The notes beneath the pieces were generated by a model. That model saw only the letters and a list, made by a program, of their open reading frames with translations, searched no databases and was not told the origin of the DNA. A stretch of 33,554 nucleotides of DNA from Myxococcales bacterium (GTDB taxonomy: Bacteria; Myxococcota_A; Polyangia; Polyangiales; Houyiibacteriaceae): assembly GCA_029862185.1 (NCBI GenBank), contig JAOTXX010000045.1:1-33554 (forward strand), written 5' to 3'. Positions 7,310 through 32,965 of the stretch are shown one piece after another. Both the position numbers and the translations under genes were made by a program. How positions within the stretch are numbered: the stretch's first letter is position 1; the number at the start of each line of letters is the position of its first letter.

Positions 7310-8368
7310 CTAGTGCTCGCGGGGCCAGCGCGGACGTTGGCGCGCTTCGAGCTCCGAGGCGATCTGTCCAAAATGGCGCCGACGTTTTCCCCGTGCGAGA
7401 ACCTCGACGGGTTTCGGGAGGCGGCCACGTCCGGCTTTCAACGCAAGGCCGAGCGCTTCTTTGGAAACGCTCAGCGCCTGGCTTCCAAGGCGGTGGATTG
7501 CGCTCACCTTGGGAACCTCATAGCCCAGAGCCGCGAGCTCACGGTGCGCGATTTGATTGAACGTCTGGGTGCGCCACCAACCGAGCTCTTTTTGGTGCTT
7601 GTTGAAGTTTTGCTCCATGATCGGCTTCGACAGGTTCTCCCAGTTCCGAACGCCTGCTGACTGCGCACGAATCTCGTCGCGGCCGTGAAACTCGAGCATG
7701 GATTCCTCGAAGTCGACGTCGACGAAGTCACACAGCGATTCGACGATGTCGCGAGGTGTAGAAACCAGGTCTTCGTAATGCACCACTCGGATTCGCTCGG
7801 ACAGATCGGGGTCACACAGGAGCGAGAGACACGCTCTTTGCTCGTCACGCCAGGTGCGCGCGATGTGAGAAATGCCGCCAAAGTGGTTTGGAGACTTGAG
7901 CCATGACAGGGCCGCGTCGCGCCCGTCTCGAACCAGATATAGAAAACGGATGTCCGCGTAGCGGTTGGCCAAGCGATTCGCATATCGGAACGCCTCGTTC
8001 TCCTTCAACAGAACGCGCGTAGCTCCGCTGGCCCGCATGACGTAGTGAAATGCGACGTCCATCAGTCCAATCAAGCTTCGCTCGCGGGCATTTTCAAAAA
8101 GGGCGTCGGGCTGCGGTGGTTCGGCATGACCGGCGATTTGGTATTGGAAGAACCGCGACACGTCCTGGCAGGCCTCTCGGAAGCTCGTGTCATCGGTGAG
8201 GTCTCCGTACAACGGCAGGAGCGGATCGATGTTGATCAGGAAGTGAACGGGGCTCGGCGCAACGACCTGTGAATGGCTTCCAAGGACCGCACGGAGCAGG
8301 TTTCCTCCGCTCCGCTCCGAAGCCAGCAGGACGATCGGTCGGTCGATTAGCAATCCGTCGGTGCTCAT
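7310..8368 (-). CDS. sulfotransferase family protein
   Basis: A 352-residue PAPS-dependent sulfotransferase. The 5'-phosphosulfate loop is SERSGGNLLR (residues 17-26), and the 3'-phosphate site is the strand FLYLVRDGRDAALSW (residues 142-156, with R147 and S155). A C-terminal segment near 260-280 (ENLSKPI and then HKKELGWW-like residues) is typical of bacterial carbohydrate or lipid sulfotransferases. The loop has Gly-Gly-Asn where most members have Gly-Thr-Thr or Gly-Thr-Ser. ATG 8368 is preferred because GGGGACCGG lies a few bases upstream; an in-frame ATG at 8383 lacks such a site. The gene converges with the SDR at 7300. The acceptor is unknown, presumably a glycan or glycolipid made by the neighbouring genes. 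Confidence 0.85.
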   Translation of the reverse strand: MSTDGLLIDRPIVLLASERSGGNLLRAVLGSHSQVVAPSPVHFLINIDPLLPLYGDLTDDTSFREACQDVSRFFQYQIAGHAEPPQPDALFENARERSLIGLMDVAFHYVMRASGATRVLLKENEAFRYANRLANRYADIRFLYLVRDGRDAALSWLKSPNHFGGISHIARTWRDEQRACLSLLCDPDLSERIRVVHYEDLVSTPRDIVESLCDFVDVDFEESMLEFHGRDEIRAQSAGVRNWENLSKPIMEQNFNKHQKELGWWRTQTFNQIAHRELAALGYEVPKVSAIHRLGSQALSVSKEALGLALKAGRGRLPKPVEVLARGKRRRHFGQIASELEARQRPRWPREH

Positions 8369-8411
8369 GGTTCCGGTCCCCATACCGACAAGCTTAGTTC
8401 AGCTCGGCGAC

Positions 8412-10277
8412 TCACCGCATCTCCTCGACCGAAGGCAACTCGCCGGAGCCCCCAACGGCCGCTGGAGGGACTCTCGCCTCATCGAGCTCGGAAAGCGGCA
8501 AGAAGGCCGGTGTACACAGCGACGACCAGACCATGACGACGGCCTCCCTATCTGGGTAGTGCTCCATCAACTTCTCGTCATGCTCGAGCGTGAGGTGATT
8601 CACCCAGAGAATCCGGTTCCTTAATTCGGGGTCGTTGTTTGGTCGCCAGAAGTTGAAGTGGTGTGTGCCGCTGCAGTGCCTGGGAACGAAGGGCCGCGAC
8701 ACGAAGACGACGGTTGGCTCTTGGAGGATCGCCTCGGCGGTGCGCCCCGGAAGCCCCGTGATCGAGCCGATTTCGTGCAAGCCCATGGCGCGCACGGGCG
8801 CGTAGCCGAGCGCCGAGGCGGTAATCAGCCCAAGGCAAAGTGCGAGGGGTGCCCTCGCCGAGAGCGCTCCTGGCAGCGAGGTCGCGCGGTCCGCGCGCAA
8901 CCACGAGGTGAGTCGAGTGATCCCAAGCGCCGTCAAGAGAATCACCGGGAGCGCTAATTCGAGGTAGTGCACCGGGCCAAACGTATCGATACCGCCGTTG
9001 CGCAAGTAGAAGTGCGTCACGACGAAGCAGAGCAACATAGTCCATGGGATCCAACTGCGATGGCTCCGCCAACCCGCAAAAGGCACGAAGACAAACGCGA
9101 ACGGCCAGCCAAACACCGCGTAGTTGAATCGCGTCAGCGAAACACCCGTCTGAGCCGCGGCTAGGCCGATCGGCCCAAGCTCCATGGCGGGAGTTCTTTC
9201 CTTTGGAAACCAGTTCCATGCTGCGAATCGGAAGCCATTCTCCCGCGCATAGGTGATTGCACGTTGATAGGATACGGTCGTGAAACTGCCGTTCTGAGCC
9301 ATGTTGATCAGAAAGAACACGGCGGCGAACGCAAGCGCAGGAGCTGCAAACGCACCTATCGCCTGCCATCGCGCCTTGCCGTGGATCGACGAGAGGGAGA
9401 GGAGCCACGCTCCGAGGAGAGGAAGCCCGATGCCCAAGGCGGAGCTCGGGCGCACGAAGAAAGCGACCGAGAATGATGTCGCGAGTGCGGCGTGCAACCA
9501 AAGCCTGTCATCTCCGGTGTAGATGAGGACTGCGAAGAACGTTGCCCAGGCGAGTGCGAAAACGCAGGAGGTGTGCGAGAGCTGCGTAGCGGCGCCGAAC
9601 TGCACAAGCGGTGCCGCCAAGAAGATCATGGTGCCGATCACTGCACAGCGTCGTCCGCCAAGTCTACGAAGTGTGAGAAAAATCGGTGGGACGGTGAGTG
9701 CCGAGTACAGAGGATTCATCAACCCAGGCGCACCGAGCGCGACACCGGGAGCGAGCAGTGCGGGCCACCCTAGGAAGTACTGCGAGTAGAACTTGCCGTC
9801 ATTGATCATGAACGCGCGGTCGAAGAAGAGCTTCATCGGCGGTGACTCGGCGTAGAGCCGCCCGCTCGCGACGAGCTCGGCCATGAATCGATATGCCGAT
9901 TCGTCGTCGGCGATATCCGCGCCCTGCAGGAGACGCCAGCGAACGAGAAGCGGAATGAAGAGGCCAAGAAGACTCATTGCGATGATCAGGCTGCGATCCG
10001 ACGTCTTGCGCAGCTGGCGAACCGTGCTCGAAGCCCAGTCCGATTCGCTGGCTACTGCGAAAGCGCCGCCGAAGAACAGAGCCGCCAGCGACCCGAGCAC
10101 GGACCAAAAGAGAAGGAAGAAGGCATAGCCGCGGCTCATGGACACCGTCGTACCGAGCCCGAGACTGAACGACGACAGCTTGTGCTCGCCGACCTCCCAA
10201 AACATCCAAAGAGAGACCATGCCGGCCAGTATCAACGCCGTGATCTGAAGCTGCCGCGCGCGTTTGGAAGAACGCAT
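8412..10277 (-). CDS. GT-C-type polytopic membrane glycosyltransferase (GT39/ArnT-like)
   Basis: A 621-residue protein with about ten or more membrane helices. The first extracytoplasmic loop (about residues 118-160) carries an Asp-Asp-Glu cluster (ADIADDESAY) as in the PMT/ArnT superfamily, whose acidic loop residues bind metal and the lipid-phosphate sugar donor. Its C-terminal soluble region (about 500-621) contains His/Cys/Asn-rich segments. It would transfer a sugar from a polyprenyl-phosphate donor on the periplasmic face; this is family inference. ATG 10277 is preceded on the minus strand by AGGAAA about 9 bases away. It is followed by the sulfotransferase gene 43 bases downstream, so the two are probably cotranscribed. 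The opposite-strand GT2 gene may supply the lipid-linked donor. Confidence 0.8.
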   Translation of the reverse strand: MRSSKRARQLQITALILAGMVSLWMFWEVGEHKLSSFSLGLGTTVSMSRGYAFFLLFWSVLGSLAALFFGGAFAVASESDWASSTVRQLRKTSDRSLIIAMSLLGLFIPLLVRWRLLQGADIADDESAYRFMAELVASGRLYAESPPMKLFFDRAFMINDGKFYSQYFLGWPALLAPGVALGAPGLMNPLYSALTVPPIFLTLRRLGGRRCAVIGTMIFLAAPLVQFGAATQLSHTSCVFALAWATFFAVLIYTGDDRLWLHAALATSFSVAFFVRPSSALGIGLPLLGAWLLSLSSIHGKARWQAIGAFAAPALAFAAVFFLINMAQNGSFTTVSYQRAITYARENGFRFAAWNWFPKERTPAMELGPIGLAAAQTGVSLTRFNYAVFGWPFAFVFVPFAGWRSHRSWIPWTMLLCFVVTHFYLRNGGIDTFGPVHYLELALPVILLTALGITRLTSWLRADRATSLPGALSARAPLALCLGLITASALGYAPVRAMGLHEIGSITGLPGRTAEAILQEPTVVFVSRPFVPRHCSGTHHFNFWRPNNDPELRNRILWVNHLTLEHDEKLMEHYPDREAVVMVWSSLCTPAFLPLSELDEARVPPAAVGGSGELPSVEEMR

Positions 10278-10355
10278 TTCTCATTTTCCTACGCGCCGAG
10301 ACAGCTGGTCAACAGATTGACGTTTCGGATTCGACAGGGCAATTAGAAAGGAATG

Positions 10356-11180
10356 ATGTCCGACAGCGCCGGTGCAAAACCAAGCGATCGAGGCGAGAAA
10401 CTCTGCGTTCTCGTTCCCTGCCTGAACGAGCAAGGGCTCGTGCGGCGCACCGTGAAAGAGGTGCTCCAACACGCCGACCGGATCTCGATCCAAGTCGAGG
10501 TCGTCATGATCGACGACGGCTCCAGGGATGACACGCGCGAGGTCATGCGCGAGCTCTGCGATGAAGACAGTCGCTGCAGGCTCATCGCGCACGACGTCAA
10601 TCGCGGCCTTGGCCGCTGTGTGACCGAGGCGTACGAGACCATCGAGGATGACACCTGGGTTACGGTGTTTCCGGGCGACAGCGAGTTCGTGTTCGCGGAG
10701 TCGATCGACAATCTGTTGGAGGCGCGCCACGGTCATGACGTCGTTCTGGGGTATTTGTACAATCCTGTCGTTCGAAAATTGTCGCGCCGAATCGCATCCA
10801 CGGGTTTTCTCAAATTGACCAAGACGCTCTACGGGTTTCGTTGGCGATCGCTCAACGGGATGAAGCTCTACCGAGCGAGCGCGTTCAAGGGCATCCACGT
10901 CGAATCCGGTGGGCATGCCTACGTCGCCGAGCTCCTCGCCAAGGCGCAGCTGCGTCGACCCGATCTTCGCATTGCCGAAGCACCCTACATTTCGCGAGGA
11001 CGAGCGATTGGGGATTCCCACGCCATCAAGCCGATGGCCGTCATTCGTGCGGTCCACGAAACCTACAAGGGCGCCCAGGATGTGGGCAAGTACAGAGAAA
11101 AGATGGTGCGTCGGTACCACGAAGAGCAGGAACGCGGCGAGCAGCCCGAAAGCTTCTTCCCACCTCCGACCAGGGACTGA
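10356..11180 (+). CDS. family 2 glycosyltransferase (DPM1-like)
   Basis: A 274-residue GT-A fold enzyme. The N-terminus has VLVPCLNEQGLV and then the nucleotide-binding DDGSRDDT segment; PGDSEF supplies the DxD-like metal site. It resembles dolichyl/polyprenyl-phosphate mannose synthases, but there are no membrane helices at the C-terminus, which ends in a charged tail. It would make a polyprenyl-phosphate sugar or elongate a lipid-linked glycan at the cytoplasmic face. Two adjacent ATG codons (10353, 10356) follow AGAAAGGA (10345-10352); the second has the better spacing. It is the only plus-strand gene between two minus-strand GT-C genes. Pairing a DPM-type GT2 with GT-C enzymes is a common donor-plus-transferase arrangement. 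Confidence 0.87.
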   Translation: MSDSAGAKPSDRGEKLCVLVPCLNEQGLVRRTVKEVLQHADRISIQVEVVMIDDGSRDDTREVMRELCDEDSRCRLIAHDVNRGLGRCVTEAYETIEDDTWVTVFPGDSEFVFAESIDNLLEARHGHDVVLGYLYNPVVRKLSRRIASTGFLKLTKTLYGFRWRSLNGMKLYRASAFKGIHVESGGHAYVAELLAKAQLRRPDLRIAEAPYISRGRAIGDSHAIKPMAVIRAVHETYKGAQDVGKYREKMVRRYHEEQERGEQPESFFPPPTRD

Positions 11181-11201: not shown

Positions 11202-12725
11202 TCACTGGATGCAGCGAGGGTATCGGGGGCCCCAATGCTCGACGATGTATGCGGAAAGCGGCTCATACTCCGTTGCCTTCTTCGTGAAGAGTCGAACGAG
11301 ACGGCACGGATCTTCCGGCTCTAGGACAGCCGGGAGCTCGACGAAGCGCGTCAGCGGTGAGAACGAGCTCGTGGACTCGATCTCTTCCCATTGCACCGGC
11401 TCGGGAAATCGGTCCACCAAATAGACGGCGACGAACCGATGGTAGGCGCCGCGATCGAGGTCATCGGCGTGAAAGAACGTGTTGGACGCGTTGTGATGAT
11501 GGAGGGTGGCTCTCGGCTCTACACGAACGGCGTACAACCAGAGCGAATCCTCTTCGGTCCATGCGCGCCGCGCGGAGAGGCTGCCAAAAAGAGAGGCCGC
11601 TCCGAGCGAGGCGACGACCAGGGCCCGGACGGCGGGCCGTTTCAGCGAAGCGAAGATGCCGATGCCCGCGATCATGGCGATGCCAAGAGTCGCAGGGTAG
11701 AGCAGTCGCTCGGCGAGGTCGGTAATCAACGGAACAAACCAGTGCGATTGCAGGAGGGCCGGCGCGTAGAGCAGCGACAGGGCCGCCACCCAGTCGACGC
11801 GCCGTTGCTTGACCGCCCAGGCGCCGCCAATCATGCCCGCGATGAGCAACAAACCTCCAGCGGCCGCGTAGGGACCGAGCACCCCGACCTGCAGCTCCAC
11901 GGCCGCGTATCCGTGATTCGGCGCGAGCGGCCAAGGCCAGACGGTCATCAACAAGGAGCGCCCGATGTTGTGAAGCCCTAGAAGCAGGCGAAGCTCGCCA
12001 TCGGCCTGGTGCGCCAGGTTGCTGGTGATCATCGCGACACCGGGGGCCCTCGGGAGGCTGAGCTGAAGGCCGATCACCAAGGCCGTCACTAGCAGCGCCG
12101 GAAGCGCGGCAAGCCAGCGGGGCCGATTTTGGTCTCCTCCGATCAAGAACAAGATCGCGGCGAGTGGCGCCAGGATGATCGCCGACTCCTTGACGAGAGC
12201 GGCCAGAACGAGCAGCAGCGCACAACTGCATCCGGCGCGTAGGCTTGCTGGCCCTATGGCGACCGTACAGGCGGCGAGCGCCAACGAAAACGACAGCAGG
12301 TCGGCCTGGGCGACGATCGCGCTCACGGCCTCGGTGTTGAGGGGATGCAATGCAAACAGGGTTCCGACGGCGGCTGACAACGCGTACGAAGGACGGAGCC
12401 GATGGACGAATCGCATGCTAATCCCGACAGCCAAGACGTGTAGCGTTGCGCTCAGGATGTGAAACGGCAGAGGATTCGAAGGCCACAGCTTCCAGATCAG
12501 TGCCCAAAGGATCGGCATCAGAGGTCGCCACGAAGTGAACCCGTGACTCGCAGGGCGTCCCCAGAAATCCCGAGTGAAGGCTTCCCAGACCGGAGCGGTG
12601 CCATTCACCAATGGATTCTCGAGCAAGGCAGATGGATCGTCGTAGACGAAGCCTGCATCGATGACGGCGAGCCCGACGACGGCTGCCAGCAGGAGAGGAA
12701 CGACGCGGGACACGGACGCCGTCAC
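11202..12725 (-). CDS. GT-C membrane protein resembling the N-terminal part of TMTC proteins
   Basis: A 507-residue polytopic protein. Right after the first helix it has FVYDDPSALLENP (Asp29-Asp30) and then DFWG and SWRPL segments. This succession is characteristic of the TMTC/PMT-like O-mannosyltransferases, where the Asp pair is needed for catalysis. Further conserved landmarks are FALHPLNTEAV and a Lys-Glu pair in ALVKESAI. About ten helices follow, then a soluble tail. Eukaryotic TMTCs and many bacterial homologues end in TPR repeats; none are visible here. The start is GTG 12725, just 2 bases after the stop of the FemAB-like gene, with GAGAGACG upstream. A longer in-frame ATG (12800) would overlap that gene by 73 bases and adds a non-membrane Arg-rich leader. 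It is the last gene of a four-gene minus-strand operon. Confidence 0.8.
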   Translation of the reverse strand: MTASVSRVVPLLLAAVVGLAVIDAGFVYDDPSALLENPLVNGTAPVWEAFTRDFWGRPASHGFTSWRPLMPILWALIWKLWPSNPLPFHILSATLHVLAVGISMRFVHRLRPSYALSAAVGTLFALHPLNTEAVSAIVAQADLLSFSLALAACTVAIGPASLRAGCSCALLLVLAALVKESAIILAPLAAILFLIGGDQNRPRWLAALPALLVTALVIGLQLSLPRAPGVAMITSNLAHQADGELRLLLGLHNIGRSLLMTVWPWPLAPNHGYAAVELQVGVLGPYAAAGGLLLIAGMIGGAWAVKQRRVDWVAALSLLYAPALLQSHWFVPLITDLAERLLYPATLGIAMIAGIGIFASLKRPAVRALVVASLGAASLFGSLSARRAWTEEDSLWLYAVRVEPRATLHHHNASNTFFHADDLDRGAYHRFVAVYLVDRFPEPVQWEEIESTSSFSPLTRFVELPAVLEPEDPCRLVRLFTKKATEYEPLSAYIVEHWGPRYPRCIQ

Positions 12726-12727
12726 TT

Positions 12728-13744
12728 CTAACGTCTCTCGACGAGCTTCGCGCGAAACGCGGGGAAATAGGTCGAGTCGGAAACGCCCAGAGTCTCGCAA
12801 AGCGCCGCATAGCGGGGTTCGTCGATGATTCGCTGCACGACGCTGTACGGCACGGTGCCCGTCGCGATCTGTGACTTGAAGTCCCGTAGTGACTCGCTGC
12901 CGCCGCCCAGGTGGAGCGTTCGGAGGCCCCGGGACTGCGCGTGACGAATGGCCGTGTCGAAGATCGCGTTGTTCGTACCTGCGGGGCGGTCGTCAGCCGA
13001 CGCACCCAGGAAATAAAAGAGGTCCCCGCCGGAACGCAGAAAGAGCGCTGCGCCAGAAACTCCGATTTCGCTGGTCGATCGCACCAGGCACATCTCGTCG
13101 AGCGACATCAAAGCCGCCAGCGTTGGCTCGCTGAATCGATAGTCCGTGCTCGCCGCGACTCGCGCCATCGTGTGGGCGTATAGCTCGGTGAAATCGGACA
13201 CATCGAGCGGCGAGATGTCGGAGATCCAGTGAGTCTCGTGATTACGCCTATGAAATGCGCGAACCGCTCGGCGATGTCTTCGATGTTGAGTCGAGAACAT
13301 CTCGTCGTACGGAGCGGTCAAGTCGACGATGTAGTTCTCCGCGTGGATCTTTGCGTCAGGCGGTTGCCCACCTTCGCGCAGTGGATGAATTCGTGCGAAC
13401 TCGGAAATGACGCTACGCGTTCGAAGCCAATCGATCAGCACATCTTGGAATGCGCGATGAAGCGCGTGGAGATCCGCCCCGTCGCCCCAAGGGCCACCGA
13501 AATCGTAGGGAGTGCGCGCTTCGACGAGACCCGACCCTCCGGGCAGGGAGTCGAGCGGAACCAGAACGAGCGGATAGAGGATTCGCCCCATTGGCGATTC
13601 GTACCGGATCCCAACGAAGCTGCCGTTCTCTTCGCGGGCCCAGATCCTGGCATAGGCAGCGGAGTAGTAGACGTCGTCGATGCCCGCGCCCGCGAGCCAA
13701 GCGGACCAGTTTTCATCGTCTCGAGTGGTTTCGAAGGAAGACAT
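12728..13744 (-). CDS. FemAB/GNAT-like acyltransferase (Acetyltransf_6 type)
   Basis: A 338-residue soluble protein with two GNAT-like halves. The N-terminal part has VYYSAAYARIW, the central basic region STQHRRHRRAVRAF resembles the K/R-rich segment before the second GNAT domain of FemAB-like proteins, and the C-terminal part contains SGAALFL, FYFLGAS, NNAIFDTAI and LHLGGGSESLRDFK, which are typical of the second domain. Members transfer amino acids from aminoacyl-tRNA or acyl groups to cell-wall or exopolysaccharide amines; which donor is used here is not visible. It begins directly after the stop of the upstream sulfotransferase (TAG then ATG with no gap) and ends 2 bases before the TMTC-like gene. 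This strongly implies one operon and decoration of a shared product. Confidence 0.75.
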   Translation of the reverse strand: MSSFETTRDDENWSAWLAGAGIDDVYYSAAYARIWAREENGSFVGIRYESPMGRILYPLVLVPLDSLPGGSGLVEARTPYDFGGPWGDGADLHALHRAFQDVLIDWLRTRSVISEFARIHPLREGGQPPDAKIHAENYIVDLTAPYDEMFSTQHRRHRRAVRAFHRRNHETHWISDISPLDVSDFTELYAHTMARVAASTDYRFSEPTLAALMSLDEMCLVRSTSEIGVSGAALFLRSGGDLFYFLGASADDRPAGTNNAIFDTAIRHAQSRGLRTLHLGGGSESLRDFKSQIATGTVPYSVVQRIIDEPRYAALCETLGVSDSTYFPAFRAKLVERR

Positions 13745-14728
13745 CTATCGCTCAATCGCTGTCTGGATCTGGGTCCAAGTTTCGTCGTCAACGGTCTTAT
13801 GGTTGCGAGGCTCTAGCGTGACGGCATTGAGCCGCGCCCTGTCGGCGACCTCAGCTCCGATGAACCGGGCAACGCGTTGCAGGGTGCCAGGCGGCTCCTC
13901 CATCAGCTCCTCGTACTCGAGCGTAAGGCGATCCTCCGAGGGAAGAGCACCAAACGCGGTCTCGATCGCGCGACCGATATCGTGAATCTGATGGGCGACC
14001 TGCTCCACAGGCGATTTGTCACGCCAGGCGTTTACATCCCTTGGCCGGACCGACCACCAAACCCTTTGATCGCCGTATTCGTTTTCGCGGACGCGCAGAA
14101 TCGACTGCACGGTGTAGCGGTCGTCACGCCGAATCCAGATGAACTTCGCGGCTGGCAGCAACCGCTTGAGCCAAGCGACTTGATAGGAGACGAAGTTGAT
14201 GTTCTTGAGCACCAGCGGGCGCTCGAAGTAGCCCGCCAAACCCTCCAGGGCTCGCTTGACCGGTTGCCAATCGATGCCGGAAAGCTCTTCGTCGCTGAGG
14301 TCGTCGTGGAGGCGAAAGTCCCCGTAGTAGTGCCAAAACCAGGAGAACTCATGGGGCGAGCGGTCTCCGCCCGTCCGGCCGTACTCCGAGGAGAGAGCAA
14401 GCTGGTGGCCACCTCCACTGCGACCGTGAAGCATCGCTCCGAGGACCGGCGCAGCGAAGTAACGAGCCATTCGATTGTTGACGAACCCCACGTCGAGGTG
14501 CTCTGCGACGAGCTGGTAGAGCACCGTAGTCCCGGAGCGAGGGGCGCCGACGATGAACACGACGGGCACGTCGGCTCTGCCGTGCTTCGATCGAAGTAGT
14601 GCATCGACCGGTTCGAGGGCGCGGTTCTGCGCGTAGAGCGTGAGGTCATGAAGCAAGCGGCGTCGATTGTGGGCGCGCCGCAGCTCGTTGTCCCGGTATA
14701 CCGCTTCGAAGAAACGACGGGCCTTCAC
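13745..14728 (-). CDS. sulfotransferase family protein
   Basis: A 327-residue PAPS-dependent sulfotransferase. The phosphosulfate loop is canonical: VGAPRSGTT (residues 60-68). The 3'-phosphate strand KFIWIRRDDRYTVQS has Arg and Ser in the expected positions. The C-terminal region has a Leu-Glu-Tyr-Glu-Glu-Leu segment, as in many bacterial members. The start is GTG 14728, whose last two bases form the first bases of the TGA stop of the HAD gene (GTGA overlap), with GAGGAA 6 bases upstream. A longer frame open to 14908 is shadow sequence inside the HAD gene and has no domain content. It is more canonical than the sulfotransferase at 7310. The acceptor is unknown, but operon partners suggest a lipid-linked or surface glycan. 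Confidence 0.85.
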   Translation of the reverse strand: MKARRFFEAVYRDNELRRAHNRRRLLHDLTLYAQNRALEPVDALLRSKHGRADVPVVFIVGAPRSGTTVLYQLVAEHLDVGFVNNRMARYFAAPVLGAMLHGRSGGGHQLALSSEYGRTGGDRSPHEFSWFWHYYGDFRLHDDLSDEELSGIDWQPVKRALEGLAGYFERPLVLKNINFVSYQVAWLKRLLPAAKFIWIRRDDRYTVQSILRVRENEYGDQRVWWSVRPRDVNAWRDKSPVEQVAHQIHDIGRAIETAFGALPSEDRLTLEYEELMEEPPGTLQRVARFIGAEVADRARLNAVTLEPRNHKTVDDETWTQIQTAIER

Positions 14729-15387
14729 GAGAAGTTCCTCGCCCCTGCGGGGAGACAGAGCGCAAGCACCTGGGAGCTGTCCAGGGTGGGCACGATCTCG
14801 AAGCTCCCGTCGGCCCAAGCAGGGCGTGTCGCAGCGAGCACCACTACGTGCATGCCCGCACGGCTTGCGGCCAACCAGCCATCCAGCGAATCCTCGAAGG
14901 CGATGCATGCCGTTGGGTGGACGCCCAATCGCTCCGCCGCCAGTAGGTAACCTTCCGGGGATGGCTTCGGCGCCGACACGTCGTTGCCAGTGACCACGAC
15001 GTCCATCACCTCCAGGACTTCGGCGGCCGCCAGCCAGATCTCCGGAGCGACGCTGTTCGTGACGACGCCCATCGCGACTCCGTGGTCGGCAAGGGCGCGC
15101 ACCATACGAGTTGCGCCGGGCATGCTCACATTTCGAGCAGTGCGAAGCAATTGCGCGACGGCGTTTGGTTTGGCATCGAAGAGCGCTTGCCTAATTGCCG
15201 AGCTCACTTCCGGTACGGCAATCTCGATCACCTCCGATCGGGACTTGCCTTCCCGAACCGCGTCCCGGGCCGCCATGGAAAACTCAATTCCAGCGTCACG
15301 GAATACCTGCTCGAAGGCTCGCACATGTAGGGACGCCGAGTCCACCAGCACACCGTCCATGTCGAAGAGCACGGCGGATGTCGTCAT
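14725..15387 (-). CDS. HAD-superfamily hydrolase, beta-phosphoglucomutase/phosphatase-like
   Basis: A 220-residue subfamily IA HAD protein. Motif I is LFDMDGVLVD (Asp9 nucleophile, Asp11), motif II lies in VVTNS, motif III is the Lys of SAPKPSPEGY, and motif IV is FEDSLDG. A helical cap lies between motif I and II (about residues 18-85). This layout is shared by beta-phosphoglucomutase and sugar-phosphate phosphatases. It would isomerise or dephosphorylate a sugar phosphate, possibly in making the sugar used by its neighbours. It is not the GmhB type, which has a different motif set. It is the first gene of the minus-strand operon and diverges from the epimerase gene across only 50 bases, so the two operons may be coordinately regulated. 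Confidence 0.88.
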   Translation of the reverse strand: MTTSAVLFDMDGVLVDSASLHVRAFEQVFRDAGIEFSMAARDAVREGKSRSEVIEIAVPEVSSAIRQALFDAKPNAVAQLLRTARNVSMPGATRMVRALADHGVAMGVVTNSVAPEIWLAAAEVLEVMDVVVTGNDVSAPKPSPEGYLLAAERLGVHPTACIAFEDSLDGWLAASRAGMHVVVLAATRPAWADGSFEIVPTLDSSQVLALCLPAGARNFS

Positions 15388-15437
15388 TTTTCATTCATCC
15401 GGGGATTAGGATATCGTATCGACGACAAGAGGCGGAA

Positions 15438-16463
15438 ATGACGAACCAGAAATTACTCGTGACTGGGGGCGCCGGGTACATCGGCGCGGTCCTAGTCCCA
15501 GAGCTCCTGGAAGAAGGACATCATGTCACCGTCTTTGACGCCTTTCTATATGGAACGGACCCTAGCTCGGATCCCATCGTCCACCCGCGCTGCGCAAAAA
15601 TCCTTGGCGACATCCGAGATTTTGCCGCCGTCGACAAGGCGCTCGAGGAGGGCGGATTCGATGCCGTAATTCATCTCGCTGCCATCTCGAACGACCCTAG
15701 CTCCGAGCTGGATCACCAAGTGACCGAGTCGGTGAACCTTCGTGCGGTCGATCATCTGATCCGTGCATCGAAGCGATACGGCGTGAGACGCTTCCTCTAC
15801 GCCTCTTCCGCCAGCGTATACGGGATCAAAGAAGACGAGAATGTGACCGAGGAGCTCACCCTCGACCCGATCACCATCTACGCCAAGTGCAAGGCGGAGG
15901 GAGAAAAGATCCTCCAGAGCCTGGTCGACGACTCGTTCGTCGGCGTCTCGGTCCGGTCCGCCACGGTCTGTGGTTACTCGCCTCGACTTCGGCTAGACCT
16001 CACCATCAATCTGTTGACCGACCAGGCCCTGACCGACGGGCGGATTCGGGTCTTTGGTGGCTCTCAAATGCGCCCCAACGTTCACATCCTGGATCTGACG
16101 GCCTTTTACCGCATGCTCCTCACGGCGCCTGCCGAGAAGATCACGGGTCGGGCGTTCAACGTGAGTCGGGAGAACGCGTCCGTCATGGCCTTGGCAGAGA
16201 TGATCCGAGACGAGCTCGACCCGTCGCTACCGATCGACACCGTGCCGACCGATGATCCGCGTTCTTACCACCTCTCCGCCGATCGGGCGCGCAGGGAGCT
16301 TGGCTTCGAGCCGCAGCACGATTTGGTCACTGCTGTCCGAGAGCTGCGCGAGGCCTATGGCTCGGGCCGGGTTTCAGACAGCTGCTCCGACGTATATCGA
16401 AACGTCGCATGGATGAAGGCCCGCCCGGAGCTTTGGCGGTCGGCCGCGAAGCTCGTTTCATGA
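15438..16463 (+). CDS. NAD-dependent sugar nucleotide epimerase/dehydratase
   Basis: A 341-residue extended SDR. The nucleotide site is GGAGYIG (G10, G13, G16) and the catalytic pair is Y148-x3-K152 (YAKCK), with the SSASVYG segment supplying the Ser. Related proteins act as NDP-hexose or NDP-heptose 4-epimerases, 4,6-dehydratases or reductases. The NPN/HVRD-like loop is replaced here by NVHILDLTAFY, which fits sugar-nucleotide SDRs. The start ATG 15438 follows AAGAGGCGGA, and the Rossmann strand begins at residue 5. The open frame extends upstream to 15195 through the opposite-strand HAD gene; that is shadow sequence. The stop overlaps the next gene as ATGA. With the aminotransferase it could build an amino sugar. 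Confidence 0.88.
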   Translation: MTNQKLLVTGGAGYIGAVLVPELLEEGHHVTVFDAFLYGTDPSSDPIVHPRCAKILGDIRDFAAVDKALEEGGFDAVIHLAAISNDPSSELDHQVTESVNLRAVDHLIRASKRYGVRRFLYASSASVYGIKEDENVTEELTLDPITIYAKCKAEGEKILQSLVDDSFVGVSVRSATVCGYSPRLRLDLTINLLTDQALTDGRIRVFGGSQMRPNVHILDLTAFYRMLLTAPAEKITGRAFNVSRENASVMALAEMIRDELDPSLPIDTVPTDDPRSYHLSADRARRELGFEPQHDLVTAVRELREAYGSGRVSDSCSDVYRNVAWMKARPELWRSAAKLVS

Positions 16464-17560
16464 CTTCGGTTCCATACGTCGACCTGGTCAAACAAAACCA
16501 GACCCTACGGCCTCGCATTCTCGAAGCAGTCGATCGCGTGTTGGGGCATGGCCAGTTCATCAACGGGCCCGAGGTGGGCGAGCTCGAGGAGAAGCTGGCT
16601 CGACGCCTCGGCGTAAAGGAAGTGGTCGGCGTCGGGTCTGGCACTTCCGCGCTCACCTTGGTCATGCGGGCTCTCGACATCGGCCCCGGGGACGAAGTCA
16701 TCACCGTCTCTCATTCGTACGTGGCCACCGCGGCTTCGGTTTGCTTGGTTGGGGCGACGCCGGTCTTCGTCGACATCGACCCGGCGACGGGGCTGATGGA
16801 CCCAGCGCTGCTCGCCGCAGCGATTTCGCCGCGAACCAAGGCTCTGATCCCCGTTCACCTGGGCGGCGTTCCCTGTCTCATGGGTCCGATACAGGAGCTC
16901 TGCCGGGCACACGGGCTACAGCTCATCGAAGACTGCGCACAGGCGGTCGGTGCGACCCTGCACGGGCGCAGCGTAGGGGCGTTCGGGACGGGCTGCTTCT
17001 CGCTGCATCCGTTGAAGACCTTGCCTGCATGTGGCGATGCGGGATTCATCACGACGAACGACCAAGATCTGGCCGCGCTCCTCCGGCGCCTCAGGTCGCT
17101 CGGCCACCGCGACCGCGACCACGTCGATGTGCCGAGTGAGAACGCGCGGCTCGACACGCTTCAAGCGGCGATTCTCTTGGTGAAGCTCCCGCATCTCGAA
17201 GAATGGATCGCGCGCCGCCGCGATCATGCCTCGGCGTATGAAACGGCACTAGGTCCGTTCTTCGAGCTGACGCGAATCAGCGAAGGAGCTGAGCCTGCCT
17301 ACAGCGCATTCGTCATTCGTCACGACAAGCGCGACGCCTTGATCGCGCATCTCGCGTCGAAAGGCTTCGAGGCAAAAGTTCACTACCCCATCGCGATCCA
17401 TCAGCAGCGTGCGTTCGAGCGAACGAGCACCACGGCGCTGCCACACACCGAGGCGCTGGTCAGGCGTATCATCAGTCTTCCGGTGACGCCCGAGTTGGAG
17501 CCTTCCGACCGGGACGCGCTCATCGCAACCTTGATCAACTGGAGCCGCAGTCATGCGTAG
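16460..17560 (+). CDS. DegT/DnrJ/EryC1/StrS-type PLP sugar aminotransferase
   Basis: A 366-residue fold-type I aminotransferase that would add an amino group to a keto-sugar nucleotide. The PLP lysine is K186 in the SLHPLKTLPACGDAGF segment. Other PLP contacts are GSGTSAL (60-65), HSYVATA, and the EDCAQAVGA segment (E157, D158, Q161). The C-terminal region has ENARLDTLQAAIL and HYPIAIHQQ, as in the family. The start is ATG 16460, which overlaps the epimerase stop (ATGA), giving coupled translation. A longer frame beginning at 16409 lies inside the epimerase gene. The product is a 3- or 4-amino sugar nucleotide in known members; which one cannot be told. The 3' end overlaps the next gene by 8 bases. 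Confidence 0.9.
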   Translation: MTSVPYVDLVKQNQTLRPRILEAVDRVLGHGQFINGPEVGELEEKLARRLGVKEVVGVGSGTSALTLVMRALDIGPGDEVITVSHSYVATAASVCLVGATPVFVDIDPATGLMDPALLAAAISPRTKALIPVHLGGVPCLMGPIQELCRAHGLQLIEDCAQAVGATLHGRSVGAFGTGCFSLHPLKTLPACGDAGFITTNDQDLAALLRRLRSLGHRDRDHVDVPSENARLDTLQAAILLVKLPHLEEWIARRRDHASAYETALGPFFELTRISEGAEPAYSAFVIRHDKRDALIAHLASKGFEAKVHYPIAIHQQRAFERTSTTALPHTEALVRRIISLPVTPELEPSDRDALIATLINWSRSHA

Positions 17561-19106
17561 CGAGGAAGCCGATAAGAAGATTCACTCGATTGAGAGCCTG
17601 CAGGCCGAGAGATCGCGACTTCGCAAAGCGGGGAAGACCGTGGTGCAGTGTCACGGCTGCTTCGATATCGTTCATCCGGGGCACATCCGGTATCTGCGCA
17701 TGGCCCGTAGCCTCGGCGATGTCTTGGTCGTGACGGTGAGCGCAGACGACGTGGTGATGAAGGGATACGACCGTCCCTACATTCCCGAAGACCTCCGGCT
17801 CGATAATCTCGCAGAGCTTGCTTGCGTGGACTACGTGGCCCTGAGCGAAGATGACTGGGCGGGCCCCGTCCTCGAGGCGATCCAACCCGACATTTACGTC
17901 AAGGGTCGAGAGTACGAGTCCAAGAACGACCCCCGCTTCGCCAAAGAGAAGAAGATCGTCGAGGCGTACAGCGGTCGCGTGGTGCTCGGCTCGGGAGACG
18001 TCATCTTTTCGTCGACCGAGATCGGCCGACGCAAGGGCAACACCCTGGATATGGAGCAGCAGAAGATCCAGCGATTTTGCCAGGTCAATGCCATCAACCC
18101 TGCGCGGCTCAAGAACGCGATCGCTGCGTTTTCGGATCTCAAAGTCCTGGTGCTCGGCGACGCCATCCTCGATCAGTATTCACACTGCGAAGGCGCGCGC
18201 GTCGCGTCCGAGAGCCCGATTGTATCCGTGAAGCCCATCAGCGAGGAGTGGTTCATCGGTGGCGCCGGGCTGATCGCTCGTCAAGCGGCCATCCTCGGCG
18301 CAAAGCCCACGTTCATCACCTGCTGTGAGGAGGACGAATCGTTCCTGCGAATCAGAGCCAGCCTGGAACGGTCGGGCGTCGAAGTGCACAACCTGCCTGC
18401 GCCGGGGCGCAGAGCGTATACCAAGACCCGGTACTTGGTCGGCGGCAAGAAGGTCTTCAAAGTCGACCGCGGGAATCCGGCCCCGATTCCCATCGAAACC
18501 AGTGACGAGCTCATGATCATGCTGCAGGAGCAGCTCGACAAGCACGACGGGCTCATCGTGACCGATTTCGGATATGGCTTGTTTGGTCCCACGCTGGCCA
18601 ACGCGATTCCGAAGATCGCCGATCGATGCGGCAAGCCCTATTTCGCCGACGTGAGCACGAATGGGCAGGCCAACATCCTCAAGTTCAGCAGGCCGCAGCT
18701 CGCTACACCGACCGAGGACGAGCTCCGGTTTGCCTTGGGCGATGCGGAGAGCGGCATCTCCAACTTGGCGAGCCGGTACTACGCGGCCAGTGGCGCCAAG
18801 GGTCTCATCGTGACGATGGGTCGGCGAGGCTCGCTCTGTTTTCGGCCTCCTCGAGACGATGGCGACCGGTTGAGGACCGACTATCTACCGGCGCTCGAGA
18901 TCCATGAGGTGGACGCGGTGGGGGCTGGAGACGTATTCCTGACGGGCGCGAGCCTCGCCCAGCTCGCGGGCGAGTCCCTTCCCGTCGGGATGTATGTGGG
19001 CAGCTCGTTGGCCTCGATCTCTGCGGGGATACTCGGCAATGAAGGCGCGCCGCTGCCCGACCTCTACGAGTTCTTCGAGCAGCGTCTGGAGCTCGCCGGC
19101 GAGTAG
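17553..19106 (+). CDS. bifunctional nucleotidyltransferase / PfkB sugar kinase, HldE-like with reversed domain order
   Basis: A 517-residue fusion. Residues about 28-165 form a cytidylyltransferase/adenylyltransferase domain with HGCFDIVHPGH (HxGH at 41-44), a Lys in YVKGREYES, and an SSTEI segment. Residues about 190-515 form a PfkB/ribokinase kinase with VLGDAILDQY near 205, the WFIGGAG segment, and DAVGAGDVF carrying catalytic Asp460. In E. coli HldE (RfaE) the kinase is N-terminal and the nucleotidyltransferase C-terminal; here the order is swapped. The usual kinase motif DTTGAGD reads DAVGAGD. By family it would phosphorylate a sugar 7-phosphate (or similar) at C1 and then activate it as an NDP-sugar. 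The gene overlaps the aminotransferase gene by 8 bases. Confidence 0.88.
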   Translation: MRSEEADKKIHSIESLQAERSRLRKAGKTVVQCHGCFDIVHPGHIRYLRMARSLGDVLVVTVSADDVVMKGYDRPYIPEDLRLDNLAELACVDYVALSEDDWAGPVLEAIQPDIYVKGREYESKNDPRFAKEKKIVEAYSGRVVLGSGDVIFSSTEIGRRKGNTLDMEQQKIQRFCQVNAINPARLKNAIAAFSDLKVLVLGDAILDQYSHCEGARVASESPIVSVKPISEEWFIGGAGLIARQAAILGAKPTFITCCEEDESFLRIRASLERSGVEVHNLPAPGRRAYTKTRYLVGGKKVFKVDRGNPAPIPIETSDELMIMLQEQLDKHDGLIVTDFGYGLFGPTLANAIPKIADRCGKPYFADVSTNGQANILKFSRPQLATPTEDELRFALGDAESGISNLASRYYAASGAKGLIVTMGRRGSLCFRPPRDDGDRLRTDYLPALEIHEVDAVGAGDVFLTGASLAQLAGESLPVGMYVGSSLASISAGILGNEGAPLPDLYEFFEQRLELAGE

Positions 19107-19108
19107 CG

Positions 19109-20128
19109 ATGCGGCCGAGCTTGACCAAGGAACGCGTCCTCATGACCGCGGGTTTCGTTCTATCCGCGGTTCTCGCCGTTTACTTCCTCCGGCGCATCGA
19201 CCTCAGGGAGCTCGGCCCGACGCTGGCCTCGGTCAACCTCTGGATTCTATCCTGCTGCCTGCTGACCAAAGGGGCTGTCTTCTCGCTCGGCGCGCTGCGA
19301 ACCAAGGTATTCCTCACGCCGCTCCGCCGCTATCGCTTCACGGAATGTTTTACCGCGATGTTGGGCGGGTATGTCACCAACAACATCTTCCCTTTTCGGC
19401 TCGGTGAGCTCGTTCGCATCGACCTTCTTGCGAGGGCTGGCGAGATCTCTCGAGGGTCAACCGTCGCGGTCGTAGCGCTCGAGCGTTTGCTCGACCTCAT
19501 CTCGTTCTTGATTTTGTTCGCTGTGGTCGTGCCGCTTCTCGCCATCGATCTCTCGGGCAACCGTCGTCTCGCATGGCTGCTTGGAGCGATTCTCGCCGCG
19601 CTTCTTGCCGTGGCGTGGCTAGCGTCCAACCCTTCCAGGTTTCCTGGGATCGTCGTGTTCTTCGCGCGTCCGTTCAGCCCGAGGCTTCAAGCCTGGCTCT
19701 TGCAGAAGTCGCAACGGTTCGTCGATGGGTTGAGCGCACTACGGTCGAGCAGGGCGGTGGCCCAGGCGTTGGTGCTCACCTTCGCCATACGTCTGGTCGG
19801 GATGCTCACCATTCAATGTTGGCTCTGGGCTTTTGGACTCGAGCTGCCGCTGTACGCCCCGCTCATCGTGATGGTCTTCCTTTCGATCGGCACGATGGTT
19901 CCCTCATCGCCGGGCTTCATCGGTACGTTTCACGTCGCGGTCGCCTATGCGCTGGAGCTCATGGGGGTCGTTCCGAGCATGGCTGCCTCCGTGGCAATTG
20001 CGGGACATTTCATGGCTACCGTCCCCTGGACCATCATCGGCTTGTCCGTGAGCCTGCCAGCGATTCGTAGCGTGTGGAAACGAGGCAGCGAGGGAAGCCA
20101 GCGAGTCAAGCCTGTGATTCGGGCATAG
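19109..20128 (+). CDS. lysylphosphatidylglycerol synthase TM region / AglD-like (UPF0104) membrane protein
   Basis: A 339-residue protein with about eight membrane helices and no soluble domain. Family landmarks are the RxxxRxxxxG-type region TNNIFPFRLGELVRID, VALERLLDLI and the PSSPGFIGTFH segment. These belong to the LPG_synthase_TM/UPF0104 family, which includes AglD-related proteins and the flippase part of MprF. Members are linked to lipid flipping or to lipid-linked sugar transfer. Only 2 bases separate its ATG from the kinase stop, so it is the last gene of the plus-strand sugar operon. It could flip the lipid-linked product across the inner membrane; this is inference from family and context. 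Confidence 0.82.
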   Translation: MRPSLTKERVLMTAGFVLSAVLAVYFLRRIDLRELGPTLASVNLWILSCCLLTKGAVFSLGALRTKVFLTPLRRYRFTECFTAMLGGYVTNNIFPFRLGELVRIDLLARAGEISRGSTVAVVALERLLDLISFLILFAVVVPLLAIDLSGNRRLAWLLGAILAALLAVAWLASNPSRFPGIVVFFARPFSPRLQAWLLQKSQRFVDGLSALRSSRAVAQALVLTFAIRLVGMLTIQCWLWAFGLELPLYAPLIVMVFLSIGTMVPSSPGFIGTFHVAVAYALELMGVVPSMAASVAIAGHFMATVPWTIIGLSVSLPAIRSVWKRGSEGSQRVKPVIRA

Positions 20129-20194: not shown

Positions 20195-21430
20195 ATGGAT
20201 AGCCAGATGTTGCGCGAGCGGCTTGCAAACGATTTTGAAAGGGTGCGCGCGCAAACCGAGGCGCTCGTAGCGCCGCTATCCGCCGAGGATCAATGCGTTC
20301 AGAGCATGCCGGACGCAAGCCCGAGCAAATGGCACCGCGCGCACACGACTTGGTTCTTCGAGACTTTCGTGCTGGGCCCGGCGGGTGTGGAAGGCCTCTC
20401 GCCCGAGCCGTATGCCATCTTGTTCAACAGCTACTACAACGCCGTCGGCGAGCAGTATCACCGCCCTTCACGCGGGCTGCTCACCAGGCCTAGCCAGGAC
20501 GAGGTGAAGGCCTACCGCGAACGAGTAGACACTTCGGTCCTCGATCTTCTTCGGACGGGGATCGACGAAGAGCTCGCAAGGCGCGTCGAGGTCGGGTTGC
20601 ACCACGAGCAACAACACCAAGAGCTGCTGGTCACCGACATCAAGCATCTCTTTTCTTGCAATCCACTCGATCCGGTATACGCCCGTGACGCATCGCTGCA
20701 GCAGGACGCCGCTTCGGCCCCTGCGATGCGCTGGGCTAAGCACGCAGGAGGCATCGCGCGCATCGGCTGTGATCCGACGTACTACCACTTCGACAATGAG
20801 GGTCCGGTCCACGATGCCTTGCTGCACCCGTTCGAGATTGGCAAACGCCTGGTCACAAACGGGGAATATCTGGCGTTCATCGAAGACGGGGGCTACGACC
20901 GGCCCGAGCTTTGGCTGAGCGCGGGTTGGGACGCGGCGCAAGACCGAGGCTGGCGCGCCCCCCACTACTGGCGCAAGGAGACCGATGGCTGGAGCCAGTT
21001 CACGCTCCATGGGCGCCGGCCCGTTCGCGATGCCGAACCGGTCGTCCATGTGAGCTTCTACGAAGCGGACGCGTATGCGCGTTGGTCCGGCGCGCGCCTG
21101 CCGACCGAGCAGGAGTGGGAGGTCGCAACCAGCGAGCCCGAGCCCGCGCCTCTAGGGGGTCGCGCAAGGAAGATACATCCAACCAGTCCGAGCCCATATG
21201 GAGCCGCGTGGCAGTGGACGAGCTCCAGCTATGCGGCCTATCCGGGCTATCGACCCGCCGAGGGGACGCTCGGGGAGTACAACGGTAAGTTCATGTGCAA
21301 CCAACAGGTCTTGCGAGGTAGCAGCTGCGCAACGCCCGCGGGCCATGCACGCCGAAGCTATCGAAATTTCTTCCCAGCCGATGCCCGCTGGCAGTTCAGC
21401 GGCATTCGGTTGGCCCGGGATGCTGGTTGA
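20195..21430 (+). CDS. egtB: ergothioneine biosynthesis sulfoxide synthase EgtB
   Basis: A 411-residue non-heme iron enzyme that joins hercynine to a thiol donor (gamma-glutamylcysteine or cysteine) using O2. The N-terminal DinB-like domain carries the His-rich sites: WHRAHTTWFFE (H47, H50) and HHEQQHQEL, which contains HX3HXE (H137, H141, E143), matching the iron ligand pattern of EgtB. The C-terminal FGE-sulfatase domain shows CNQQVLRGSS, RRSYRNFF and WQFSGIRLAR. ATG 20195 is preceded by AGGGTGG at 5 bases; GTG 20186 is an alternative. The 3' end overlaps egtD by 11 bases. No egtA, egtC or egtE is in the window, so the donor thiol and the final C-S lyase step must be supplied elsewhere. Confidence 0.93.
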   Translation: MDSQMLRERLANDFERVRAQTEALVAPLSAEDQCVQSMPDASPSKWHRAHTTWFFETFVLGPAGVEGLSPEPYAILFNSYYNAVGEQYHRPSRGLLTRPSQDEVKAYRERVDTSVLDLLRTGIDEELARRVEVGLHHEQQHQELLVTDIKHLFSCNPLDPVYARDASLQQDAASAPAMRWAKHAGGIARIGCDPTYYHFDNEGPVHDALLHPFEIGKRLVTNGEYLAFIEDGGYDRPELWLSAGWDAAQDRGWRAPHYWRKETDGWSQFTLHGRRPVRDAEPVVHVSFYEADAYARWSGARLPTEQEWEVATSEPEPAPLGGRARKIHPTSPSPYGAAWQWTSSSYAAYPGYRPAEGTLGEYNGKFMCNQQVLRGSSCATPAGHARRSYRNFFPADARWQFSGIRLARDAG

Positions 21431-22418
21431 ATCGATGATTGCTTTTGATCCGCTGAGCACTAATGAGCGCGTTCGCGTAGTCGACCTTCATCCGAAGCTC
21501 GGTGACTTGCGGCAAGAGTCGATTGACGGATTGCGGCGTTCGCAAAAGGCACTCCCCTGCAAGTATTTCTACGACGCATTGGGCGCGCGGCTGTTCGAAG
21601 CGATCACCGAGCTGCCCGAGTACTATCCAACCCGGACCGAGCTCCGGATCATGAGCCAGGCCGTTCATGAGATGGCTGATTCGATCGGCACGCATGCCAC
21701 CCTGGTCGAATTCGGCTCCGGCGTCGGCCTCAAGACTCAAAAACTTCTCGACGCCTTGATCGACCCGAGCGGTTGCGTTCTAATCGACATCAGCCGTGCC
21801 GCGCTCGAGGCATCGGCTCATCAGCTCGCGGGCCGCTACGAGGACATGGAGGTCATCGGGGTCTGCGCCGACTACACCCAAGCCTTACGTCTGCCTCGGC
21901 CCCACCGTCCGAGCGCTCGGACGGTTGCGTTCTTTCCCGGAAGTACGATCGGCAATTTCACTCGCGACGAGGCCGTGCGCTTCCTCGGGCGCGTTTCTGA
22001 GCTCGTAGGCCAGGGCGGAGGGCTGCTGGTCGGCATCGATCGAAAAAAGGACACCAAGGCCATCGAGGACGCCTACAACGACTCGCTGGGGGTCACCGCG
22101 GCATTCAATCTGAACATCCTGCGCAGACTCAACCAAATCGGCGCCAACTTCGACCTGACCCAGTTCCGTCACCATGCGCCTTACGTCGAACGCGAAGGTA
22201 GAATCGAAATGCGGCTGGTCAGCGAGCGCGATCAGATGGTTCGCCTCGGCGATGTCCAGATCGCTCTATCGGCGGGCGAGCACATCGTCACCGAGCACTC
22301 GCACAAGTACGACCTCGACCAATTCGAGGACATGGCGCAAGCGGCGGGCTTCCGGCTGACGAAGCAATGGAGTGATGAGCGCGACTGGTTCAGCGTTTGC
22401 CTCCTCGAAGTCGACTAG
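21420..22418 (+). CDS. egtD: L-histidine N-alpha-methyltransferase EgtD
   Basis: A 332-residue SAM-dependent methyltransferase that trimethylates histidine to hercynine, the first step of ergothioneine synthesis. Visible landmarks are the opening SQKALPCKYFYDALGARLFEAI-like region with ELPEYYPTRTE (histidine-side residues), the SAM loop VEFGSGVGLKT, the FFPGSTIGNF motif typical of EgtD and a C-terminal EHSHKYDLDQFEDMA region. ATG 21420 is 11 bases before the egtB stop; ATG 21435 is an alternative just after it. The frame extends upstream to 21198, but that part lies inside egtB. Substrate flows from EgtD to EgtB although egtB is first in the operon. It converges with the lipoprotein gene, with a gap of 2 bases. 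Confidence 0.93.
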   Translation: MLVESMIAFDPLSTNERVRVVDLHPKLGDLRQESIDGLRRSQKALPCKYFYDALGARLFEAITELPEYYPTRTELRIMSQAVHEMADSIGTHATLVEFGSGVGLKTQKLLDALIDPSGCVLIDISRAALEASAHQLAGRYEDMEVIGVCADYTQALRLPRPHRPSARTVAFFPGSTIGNFTRDEAVRFLGRVSELVGQGGGLLVGIDRKKDTKAIEDAYNDSLGVTAAFNLNILRRLNQIGANFDLTQFRHHAPYVEREGRIEMRLVSERDQMVRLGDVQIALSAGEHIVTEHSHKYDLDQFEDMAQAAGFRLTKQWSDERDWFSVCLLEVD

Positions 22419-26247: not shown

Positions 26248-26265
26248 TCGCGTCTGTAGCCCCGA

Positions 26266-26685
<420 letters not shown>

Positions 26686-26759
26686 GGCTTCTTTTTCCTC
26701 CGATGTGATGCTTGCTTCCGACTACATAGGGCGCGCTCGGCGCCAGTCGAGAGGAACAA

Positions 26760-26788
26760 GTTATCCCGGTCTTTTCGGCGCTCGTCAA
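26760..26788 (-). promoter_or_regulatory. candidate sigma70-type promoter of the rubrerythrin operon
   Basis: Read on the minus strand: TTGACG (26788-26783, five of six matches to the -35), exactly 17 bases, then GATAAC (26765-26760, four of six to the -10). The predicted start near 26753 leaves a leader of about 68 bases before ATG 26685. This is the best promoter match I found in the window. Confidence 0.55.
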
Positions 26789-28098: not shown

Positions 28099-28137
28099 TC
28101 AGCCGTCCAAGGCCAAAGAGATGTCGCTGGGATCGCC

Positions 28138-30375: not shown

Positions 30376-30429
30376 GGCCCCGCTTCATCAGCGTTTCCCA
30401 TCGTCACGCCTCCGTCAAGCGCGCCAGCG

Positions 30430-32949: not shown

Positions 32950-32965
32950 CCGAGGCGGATTGCCA

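Follow-up and report, generated by a model that had tools for sequence, protein, structure and literature searches.

Gene organization of the locus

The window analysed here is the entire contig C143 (33,554 nucleotides) of G000, a draft genome of a Myxococcales bacterium (4.29 Mb, 169 contigs), and our subject is a row of four minus-strand open reading frames (ORFs) within it, which we read not as a separate system but as part of a larger glycan locus, its decoration-and-transfer arm. In the direction of transcription, the row comprises HAD (14725-15387), the predicted sulfotransferase ST1 (13745-14728), a FemAB/FemX-like double-GNAT aminoacyl- or acyltransferase, here termed FemAB-like (12728-13744), and GTC1 (11202-12725), a TMTC-like candidate for a glycosyltransferase of fold class C (GT-C). 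The rest of the locus consists of SDR2, DegT and HldE-like sugar genes running divergently from HAD, an LPG_synthase_TM membrane protein, the glycosyltransferase GT2, a second GT-C candidate (GTC2) and a second sulfotransferase (ST2).

Re-reading of the ORFs bore out the four genes and all three of the spacings originally given for them (−4, 0 and +2 nucleotides). The stop of HAD and the start of ST1 share the junction GTGA, a 4-nucleotide overlap; ST1 and FemAB-like abut with no gap; and FemAB-like and GTC1 lie 2 nucleotides apart, taking the GTG at 12725 as the GTC1 start. The longest GTC1 ORF (532 amino acids) begins at an upstream TTG, a start that would overlap FemAB-like. The description of the four genes as fully overlapped in the original prediction was therefore an overstatement, since one of the three junctions overlaps. 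Its further argument, that such tight coupling implies one product, is weak evidence because tight packing is common in the window: with hand-chosen start codons, gaps of at most 2 nucleotides occur at 10 of 18 same-strand neighbour pairs, and at 7 of the 15 pairs outside the four-gene set.

Sugar-nucleotide genes

HAD matches PF13419 (Pfam, E 2.8e-25) and scores 137 bits against TIGR02009, under that model's cut-off of 153; it carries the motifs DMDG, VTNS, KP and ED. It is a HAD-IA phosphatase of the beta-phosphoglucomutase/phosphatase type, which would likely act as a sugar-phosphate phosphatase in a nucleotide-sugar route. Across a divergent gap of 50 bp (15388-15437) lie three plus-strand genes: SDR2, of the sugar epimerase/dehydrogenase type (15438-16463; PF01370, E 1.6e-40; motifs GGAGYIG and YAKCK), a DegT-type, pyridoxal phosphate-dependent sugar aminotransferase (16454-17560; PF01041, E 2e-104; motif SLHPLK), and the HldE-like nucleotidyltransferase–kinase fusion (17553-19106; PF01467 at 34-125 and PF00294 at 197-491; motifs HPGH, FSSTEI and GAGD). 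HAD, ST1, SDR2, DegT and HldE-like all retain the usual motifs of their families. In HldE-like the nucleotidyltransferase comes first and the kinase second, the reverse of HldE, whose order is kinase then adenylyltransferase, and its 162 bits against the HldE equivalog model lie under the cut-off of 521. Relatives that match HldE-like over both domains are present in other genera of the phylum.

Together, HldE-like, HAD, SDR2 and DegT are consistent with the synthesis of a nucleotide-linked amino sugar. G000 gives no support to a heptose route through GmhA: a PF13580 search of it returned one sub-threshold match only (24 bits, in a 613-residue frame). A GmhA-like ORF in G018 and a GmhB-like ORF in G016 were seen near the distant HldE-like/SDR2 pair of the respective genome, with scores under the equivalog cut-offs. 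Scans for regulatory signals were not informative, with 2 sigma-70-like sites against 0.8 expected, none of them inside the HAD–SDR2 gap, and 8 terminator-like sites against 4.5 expected.

Constant and variable parts within the genus

HldE-like is present at no less than 79% identity in 11 of 19 genus genomes, with a distant relative in three more. HAD and SDR2 stand divergently, 49-50 nucleotides apart, in all 10 of the genus loci that extend across this position (9 genomes); in G004 and G006 the contig ends before it. ST1, FemAB-like and GTC1 follow HAD in 3 of the 19 genomes (G000, G012 and G015), and in G010 HAD is followed by ST1 before the contig end cuts the row; several other genus genomes are incomplete. 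G012 and G015 share the four-gene order, with proteins 69-79% identical, within a gene order that is the same from ST2 to the EgtD-like gene described below. The DNA, read by eye, shows the same near-zero spacing at the G012 junctions; in G015 the ST1/FemAB gap is 0 and the homologous GTC1 start lies some 55 nucleotides past FemAB. Both FemAB and EgtB are split across two frames on one G015 contig (L015, 6118-7064 and 13528-14795), so that an assembly fault is likely.

Elsewhere in the genus the stretch after HAD holds other genes: G005 and G017 have remnants or pieces of GTC1, and G001, G003 and both G011 loci have GTC2 or a methyltransferase, beyond which lie WbqC-like proteins and methyltransferases, with another sulfotransferase in G003. 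The G005 remnant adjoins HAD (residues 1-52 then 408-506; L047, 6802-7285) and the G017 pieces stand at two contig ends (L049, 1-66; L050, 6351-6943), which points to gene turnover or to assembly problems there. WbqC-like genes (PF08889) were located in the variable stretch of G011 (L055, 7834-8553) and G001 (L052, 17373-18122). ST1 relatives of 38-50% identity are found at other positions of the locus in G001, G005 and one of the two G011 loci; in G017 one in that range lies on a separate contig that also carries GT2 and GTC2. FemAB is present in 3 of the 19 genomes, and GTC1 finds matches at E 0.001 in nine.

Because the HAD–SDR2 pair is constant and the downstream content varies among genus loci, HAD is core and the stretch after it variable, with ST1–FemAB–GTC1 as one of its alleles; GTC1 has paralogues. 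The four genes are thus not the self-contained unit first proposed: HAD belongs with the divergent SDR–DegT–HldE-like operon, and GTC1 relatives are found away from the operon in the genus.

The FemAB-like protein

The sole Pfam family that the FemAB-like protein matches above cut-off is PF13480 (Acetyltransf_6, E 1.9e-5), which four of four homologues match as well. A comparison of the single sequence with PDB sequences gave one chance-like match only, and a profile of the four homologues found the aminoacyl-tRNA-dependent peptide synthase 9wqy (E 9.8e-6) and FemX (E 7e-4). A structure model of low confidence (predicted local distance difference test, pLDDT, 55) gave FemA, Sba18/Sbb17 and FemX as its best fold matches (Z 15.7-16.6, root-mean-square deviation 4.7-6.2 over 252-273 residues), followed by a Bacteroides protein of unassigned function (2hqy, Z 13.8), MprF-type enzymes (Z about 12-14) and N-myristoyltransferases (Z about 11.5). 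The model thus shows a double-GNAT fold, and the sequence profile agrees. Lys290, invariant in the homologue alignments A3 and A4, sits in an FK motif that the profile alignment pairs with the FK of FemX; via a one-residue numbering offset, it is predicted to be equivalent to FemX K305, and the 9wqy alignment ends before it. The FemAB label therefore holds, resting on resemblance to FemX in sequence and modelled fold, and an aminoacyl-tRNA is a candidate donor.

Orf11 of BD-12 is described in a review as a Gly-tRNA-dependent enzyme converting streptothrisamine, and such enzymes are there termed FemABX-like (PMC12945691). The window protein resembles this family, including Sba18/Sbb17, in its double-GNAT fold, profile match and conserved FK lysine; in contrast, its identity to Fem-type structures is about 9-19% in the fold alignments, and it sits among glycan genes.

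The same locus could instead operate with an acyl-CoA donor, the FemAB-like protein N-acetylating or N-acylating the amino sugar with no tRNA step. This would account for the PF13480 matches, and the fold comparison also returned acyl-CoA-using tandem GNATs and N-myristoyltransferases (Z about 11-12); however, the top profile and fold matches are aminoacyl-tRNA-dependent enzymes (9wqy, FemX and FemA), one of the four homologues also matches the Pfam FemAB family (E 3.9e-6), and the FK motif aligns with that of FemX. We regard the acyl-CoA variant as somewhat less likely than not.

Sulfotransferases and sulfate supply

ST1 matches PF13469 (Sulfotransfer_3) at E 7e-22 and 79 bits, against a cut-off of 27. 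Its PRSGTT (63-68), R201, D202 and S209 are invariant across the six sequences of alignment A5, and we take them to be the loop that binds the 5′ end of 3′-phosphoadenosine 5′-phosphosulfate (PAPS) and the RD...S motif, respectively. Among PDB sequences, it matches only tyrosylprotein sulfotransferases, and these over their first loop. By family and motif, ST1 is a PAPS-type sulfotransferase of predicted activity. ST2 (7310-8383, minus strand) also matches PF13469 (E 5.4e-19) and has a 41% relative in the G279 locus described below.

G000 encodes an adenosine 5′-phosphosulfate (APS) kinase (E 3.6e-68), and its 4.3-Mb genome holds 14 Sulfotransfer_3 matches. Sulfotransferases abound in the genus, with 8-17 such matches in each of the 14 genus genomes searched. 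The kinase and this abundance make sulfation plausible. Four order-level genomes have 0 or 1 such matches. Sulfotransferase genes also stand in the clusters reported for sulfated bacterial capsules and exopolysaccharides (PMC11641403, PMC11766843, PMC13125312, PMC8205485); our locus shares with these the presence of such genes in a polysaccharide context.

Membrane proteins and GT2

GTC1 contains, in order, DD (29-30), SWRP (65-68), KE (179-180) and ERLLY (339-343), which were mapped by eye onto the motif list given for TMTC O-mannosyltransferases (PMC7801869). It thus shares DD, S-x-R-P, KE and ERxxY with the list, in the same order, and differs in lacking RxD, which reads QAD (140-142), and DW, which is absent from the invariant columns of six GTC1 homologues as judged by eye. 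At E 0.01 no Pfam family matches GTC1, DUF1736 and TPR included, and its structure model is poor (pLDDT 48.8); its GT-C fold is putative. With two motifs lost and the model too poor, we do not assign GTC1 to TMTC and term it a TMTC-like candidate. Were it a TMTC-type protein O-glycosyltransferase, the decorated sugar would go onto exported proteins; the four ordered motifs and one weak TPR-like stretch (a single match at 398-426) point that way, but the altered RxD, the absence of an invariant DW and the lack of Pfam DUF1736 and TPR matches at E 0.01 speak against it, and we regard it as improbable.

GTC2 (8412-10277, minus strand) is a large membrane protein, GT-C-like in the look of its sequence, with a DDE motif and no Pfam match. 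In G312 a relative of 41% identity neighbours GT2, and in G356 one of 39% neighbours relatives of GT2 and ST1. GT2 (10353-11180, plus strand; PF00535, E 1.9e-16; motif DDGS) is DPM-like and a candidate polyprenyl-phosphate sugar synthase; it reaches no curated model above cut-off and shows sub-cut-off similarity to the ArnC and AglJ models, among others. The LPG_synthase_TM protein (19109-20128, plus strand; PF03706, E 2.2e-40) is a candidate flippase.

Recurrence across the phylum

A survey of 377 genomes of the phylum (thresholds E 1e-10 for FemAB and E 1e-20 for ST1) found FemAB in 22 and ST1 in 26. Both occur in 8 genomes, against 1.5 expected (p 3e-5), and outside the genus in 5 against 1.1 expected (p 0.003), p-values which, like those below, are post hoc and ignore relatedness. 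In 7 of the 377 (G000, G012, G015, G279, G280, G312 and G343, from five families) the two genes lie at most 2 kb apart on one contig; the gap is about 0.75 kb in G280 and 1.8 kb in G343, where the FemAB match is weak and partial (44 bits). In G212 they are on different contigs. No ST1 relative stands near the FemAB relatives in the eight other surroundings read (G064, G069, G085, G089, G098, G306, G358 and G405).

The search profiles A4 and A5 include sequences from G279 and G312. The loci of these two genomes were located via HldE-like, independently of ST1 or FemAB, and the window's FemAB-like and ST1 proteins match theirs without a profile (E 3e-77 and 5e-55; 1e-38 and 7e-32). HldE-like itself occurs at 47% identity or more in four non-genus genomes, and four of these four have an ST1-family match, versus 22 of 369 non-genus genomes (p 1e-5).

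The G312 locus (about 13.5 kb) holds relatives of HldE-like (51%), SDR2 (60%), DegT (57%), LPG_synthase_TM, GT2 and GTC2, together with ST1 (34%), FemAB (37%), a GTC1-like protein (24%, E 9e-13) and HAD (31%, E 3e-14), so that relatives of all four gene families stand together in a distant lineage, in a different order. The ST1 profile match there extends slightly upstream of the ORF, through a TAA. In G279, GT2, ST1, FemAB, ST2, HldE-like, DegT and SDR2 are accompanied by an LPG_synthase_TM protein. In G356, one contig carries relatives of GTC2, GT2 and ST1 and a second the sugar genes; in G229 the sugar genes and GT2 share a contig and the ST1 relative is on another. The expectation that the four genes co-occur in related genomes is therefore borne out in part: the full set is seen in 3 of the 19 genus genomes, some of which are incomplete, and G312 has relatives of all four.

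The recurrence bears on two further explanations. One is that the four genes are adjacent by chance in a dense genome and serve different pathways, as the tight packing of the window and the presence of the set in so few genus genomes might suggest; because ST1 and FemAB are neighbours in five families and relatives of all four genes are gathered in G312, we reject chance adjacency as most improbable. The other is that ST1 and FemAB-like decorate not a polyprenyl-monophosphate sugar but the undecaprenyl-diphosphate-linked repeat unit of a Wzx/Wzy-type polysaccharide, the GT-C candidates acting separately. WbsX, Wzc-like and Wzy-like genes do lie 11-18 kb off in the window (26890-33156), and Wzc relatives occur in the stretches read around the FemAB relatives of G280, G098 and G358 (L141, L149 and L151); however, the recurrent partners of ST1–FemAB in G312 and G279 are GT2, HldE-like, SDR2 and DegT, and in the window EgtB/EgtD and redox genes separate the Wzc/Wzy genes from the operon. 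A Wzx/Wzy-type product thus seems rather unlikely.

Proposed pathway

Two known systems resemble the locus. Three-component periplasmic glycosylation systems comprise a polyprenyl-phosphate-sugar synthase, a flippase and a GT-C enzyme (PMC11127046). The locus likewise combines a DPM-like GT2 with a candidate flippase and GT-C candidates, and varies between relatives; it differs in a sugar apparently derived from an HldE-like/SDR/DegT route, in its extra sulfotransferases and FemX-like enzyme, and in having LPG_synthase_TM where that account has MATE or SMR proteins (PMC11127046). The likeness to a second system lies in an aminotransferase–GT2–GT-C logic, with ArnB as the best-matching model for DegT and a weak similarity of GT2 to ArnC; the scores are far under the cut-offs (226 vs 631 bits for ArnB, 29 vs 529 bits for ArnC). 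This second system, the Arn pathway, puts 4-amino-4-deoxy-L-arabinose on lipid A. It is not known to include HldE-like, sulfotransferase or FemX-like genes.

Read naturally, the four families point to decoration by sulfate and by an acyl or aminoacyl group, and the original prediction of a sulfated, acylated or aminoacylated glycan is supported in so far as these families recur in one glycan context; not supported is the four-gene unit on which it was built. We propose, with a probability of about 0.42, a three-component or Arn-like pathway in which a lipid-linked amino sugar is sulfated and aminoacylated or acylated before export and GT-C transfer. HldE-like (as kinase and nucleotidyltransferase), HAD (as phosphatase), SDR2 and DegT would make the nucleotide-linked amino sugar, which the DPM-like GT2 would load onto polyprenyl phosphate. 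On the cytoplasmic side, ST1, perhaps together with ST2, would add sulfate, and the FemX-like enzyme would put an amino acid or acyl group on the sugar amine; since PAPS, aminoacyl-tRNA and acyl-CoA are cytoplasmic, both should act before export. The LPG_synthase_TM protein would then flip the lipid-linked sugar, and GTC1 and GTC2 would transfer it to a surface glycan outside the membrane.

Several points weigh against this proposal. The probability is not set higher because part of the co-occurrence statistics, themselves post hoc, depends on genomes inside the search profiles: when G279 and G312 are excluded, the two families coincide in 3 of 367 non-genus genomes, where 0.9 would be expected (p 0.06), the only non-genus ST1–FemAB neighbours are those of G280 and G343, and the link between HldE-like and ST1 comes down to two genomes (p 0.003). 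G356 and G229 have the sugar genes and no FemAB match at 1e-10, and the contig with the ST1 relative in G229 shows no further glycan homologue over the 15 kb that were read. Within the genus, G001, G005 and G009 have long intact GTC1 relatives, and the stretches read around these contain no homologue of ST1 or FemAB. A sulfotransferase near glycan genes is less surprising in G000 than elsewhere, and with 14 Sulfotransfer_3 matches in the genome ST1 could serve another product. The one Pfam family of the FemAB-like protein is an acetyltransferase family, and the two GT-C candidates are without Pfam matches; the structure model, moreover, did not confirm GTC1 as GT-C.

Among open-licence papers, we found no description of this combination of genes. 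Each of the components is of a known kind; a glycan locus of the lipid-linked-sugar type in which sulfation and FemX-type decoration genes adjoin looks undescribed. If the proposal is true, aminoacyl-tRNA, PAPS-dependent sulfation and lipid-linked sugar transfer would be joined in one bacterial glycan pathway, and ST1–FemAB near GT2, GT-C candidates and HldE-like would provide a testable gene signature for sulfated glycans in the phylum. In its most specific form, which we consider unlikely, a polyprenyl-phosphate-linked amino sugar from the HldE-like route would receive both sulfate and a tRNA-derived amino acid before GT-C transfer, with the decoration genes swapped between relatives for surface variation, and would represent a new class of building block for surface glycans.

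Other genes of the window

Directly after the sugar genes, at 20195-22418, lie an EgtB-like gene (DinB_2 and FGE-sulfatase) and an EgtD-like gene (Methyltransf_33), which are kept in G012 and G015 and presumably serve ergothioneine synthesis. Further along, at 24305-26760, a CCG/Fe–S gene stands in a row with two further genes, which we take to be DUF3501-like and rubrerythrin-like. The WbsX glycosyltransferase, Wzc-like and Wzy-like genes mentioned above form a second polysaccharide gene group near the contig end.

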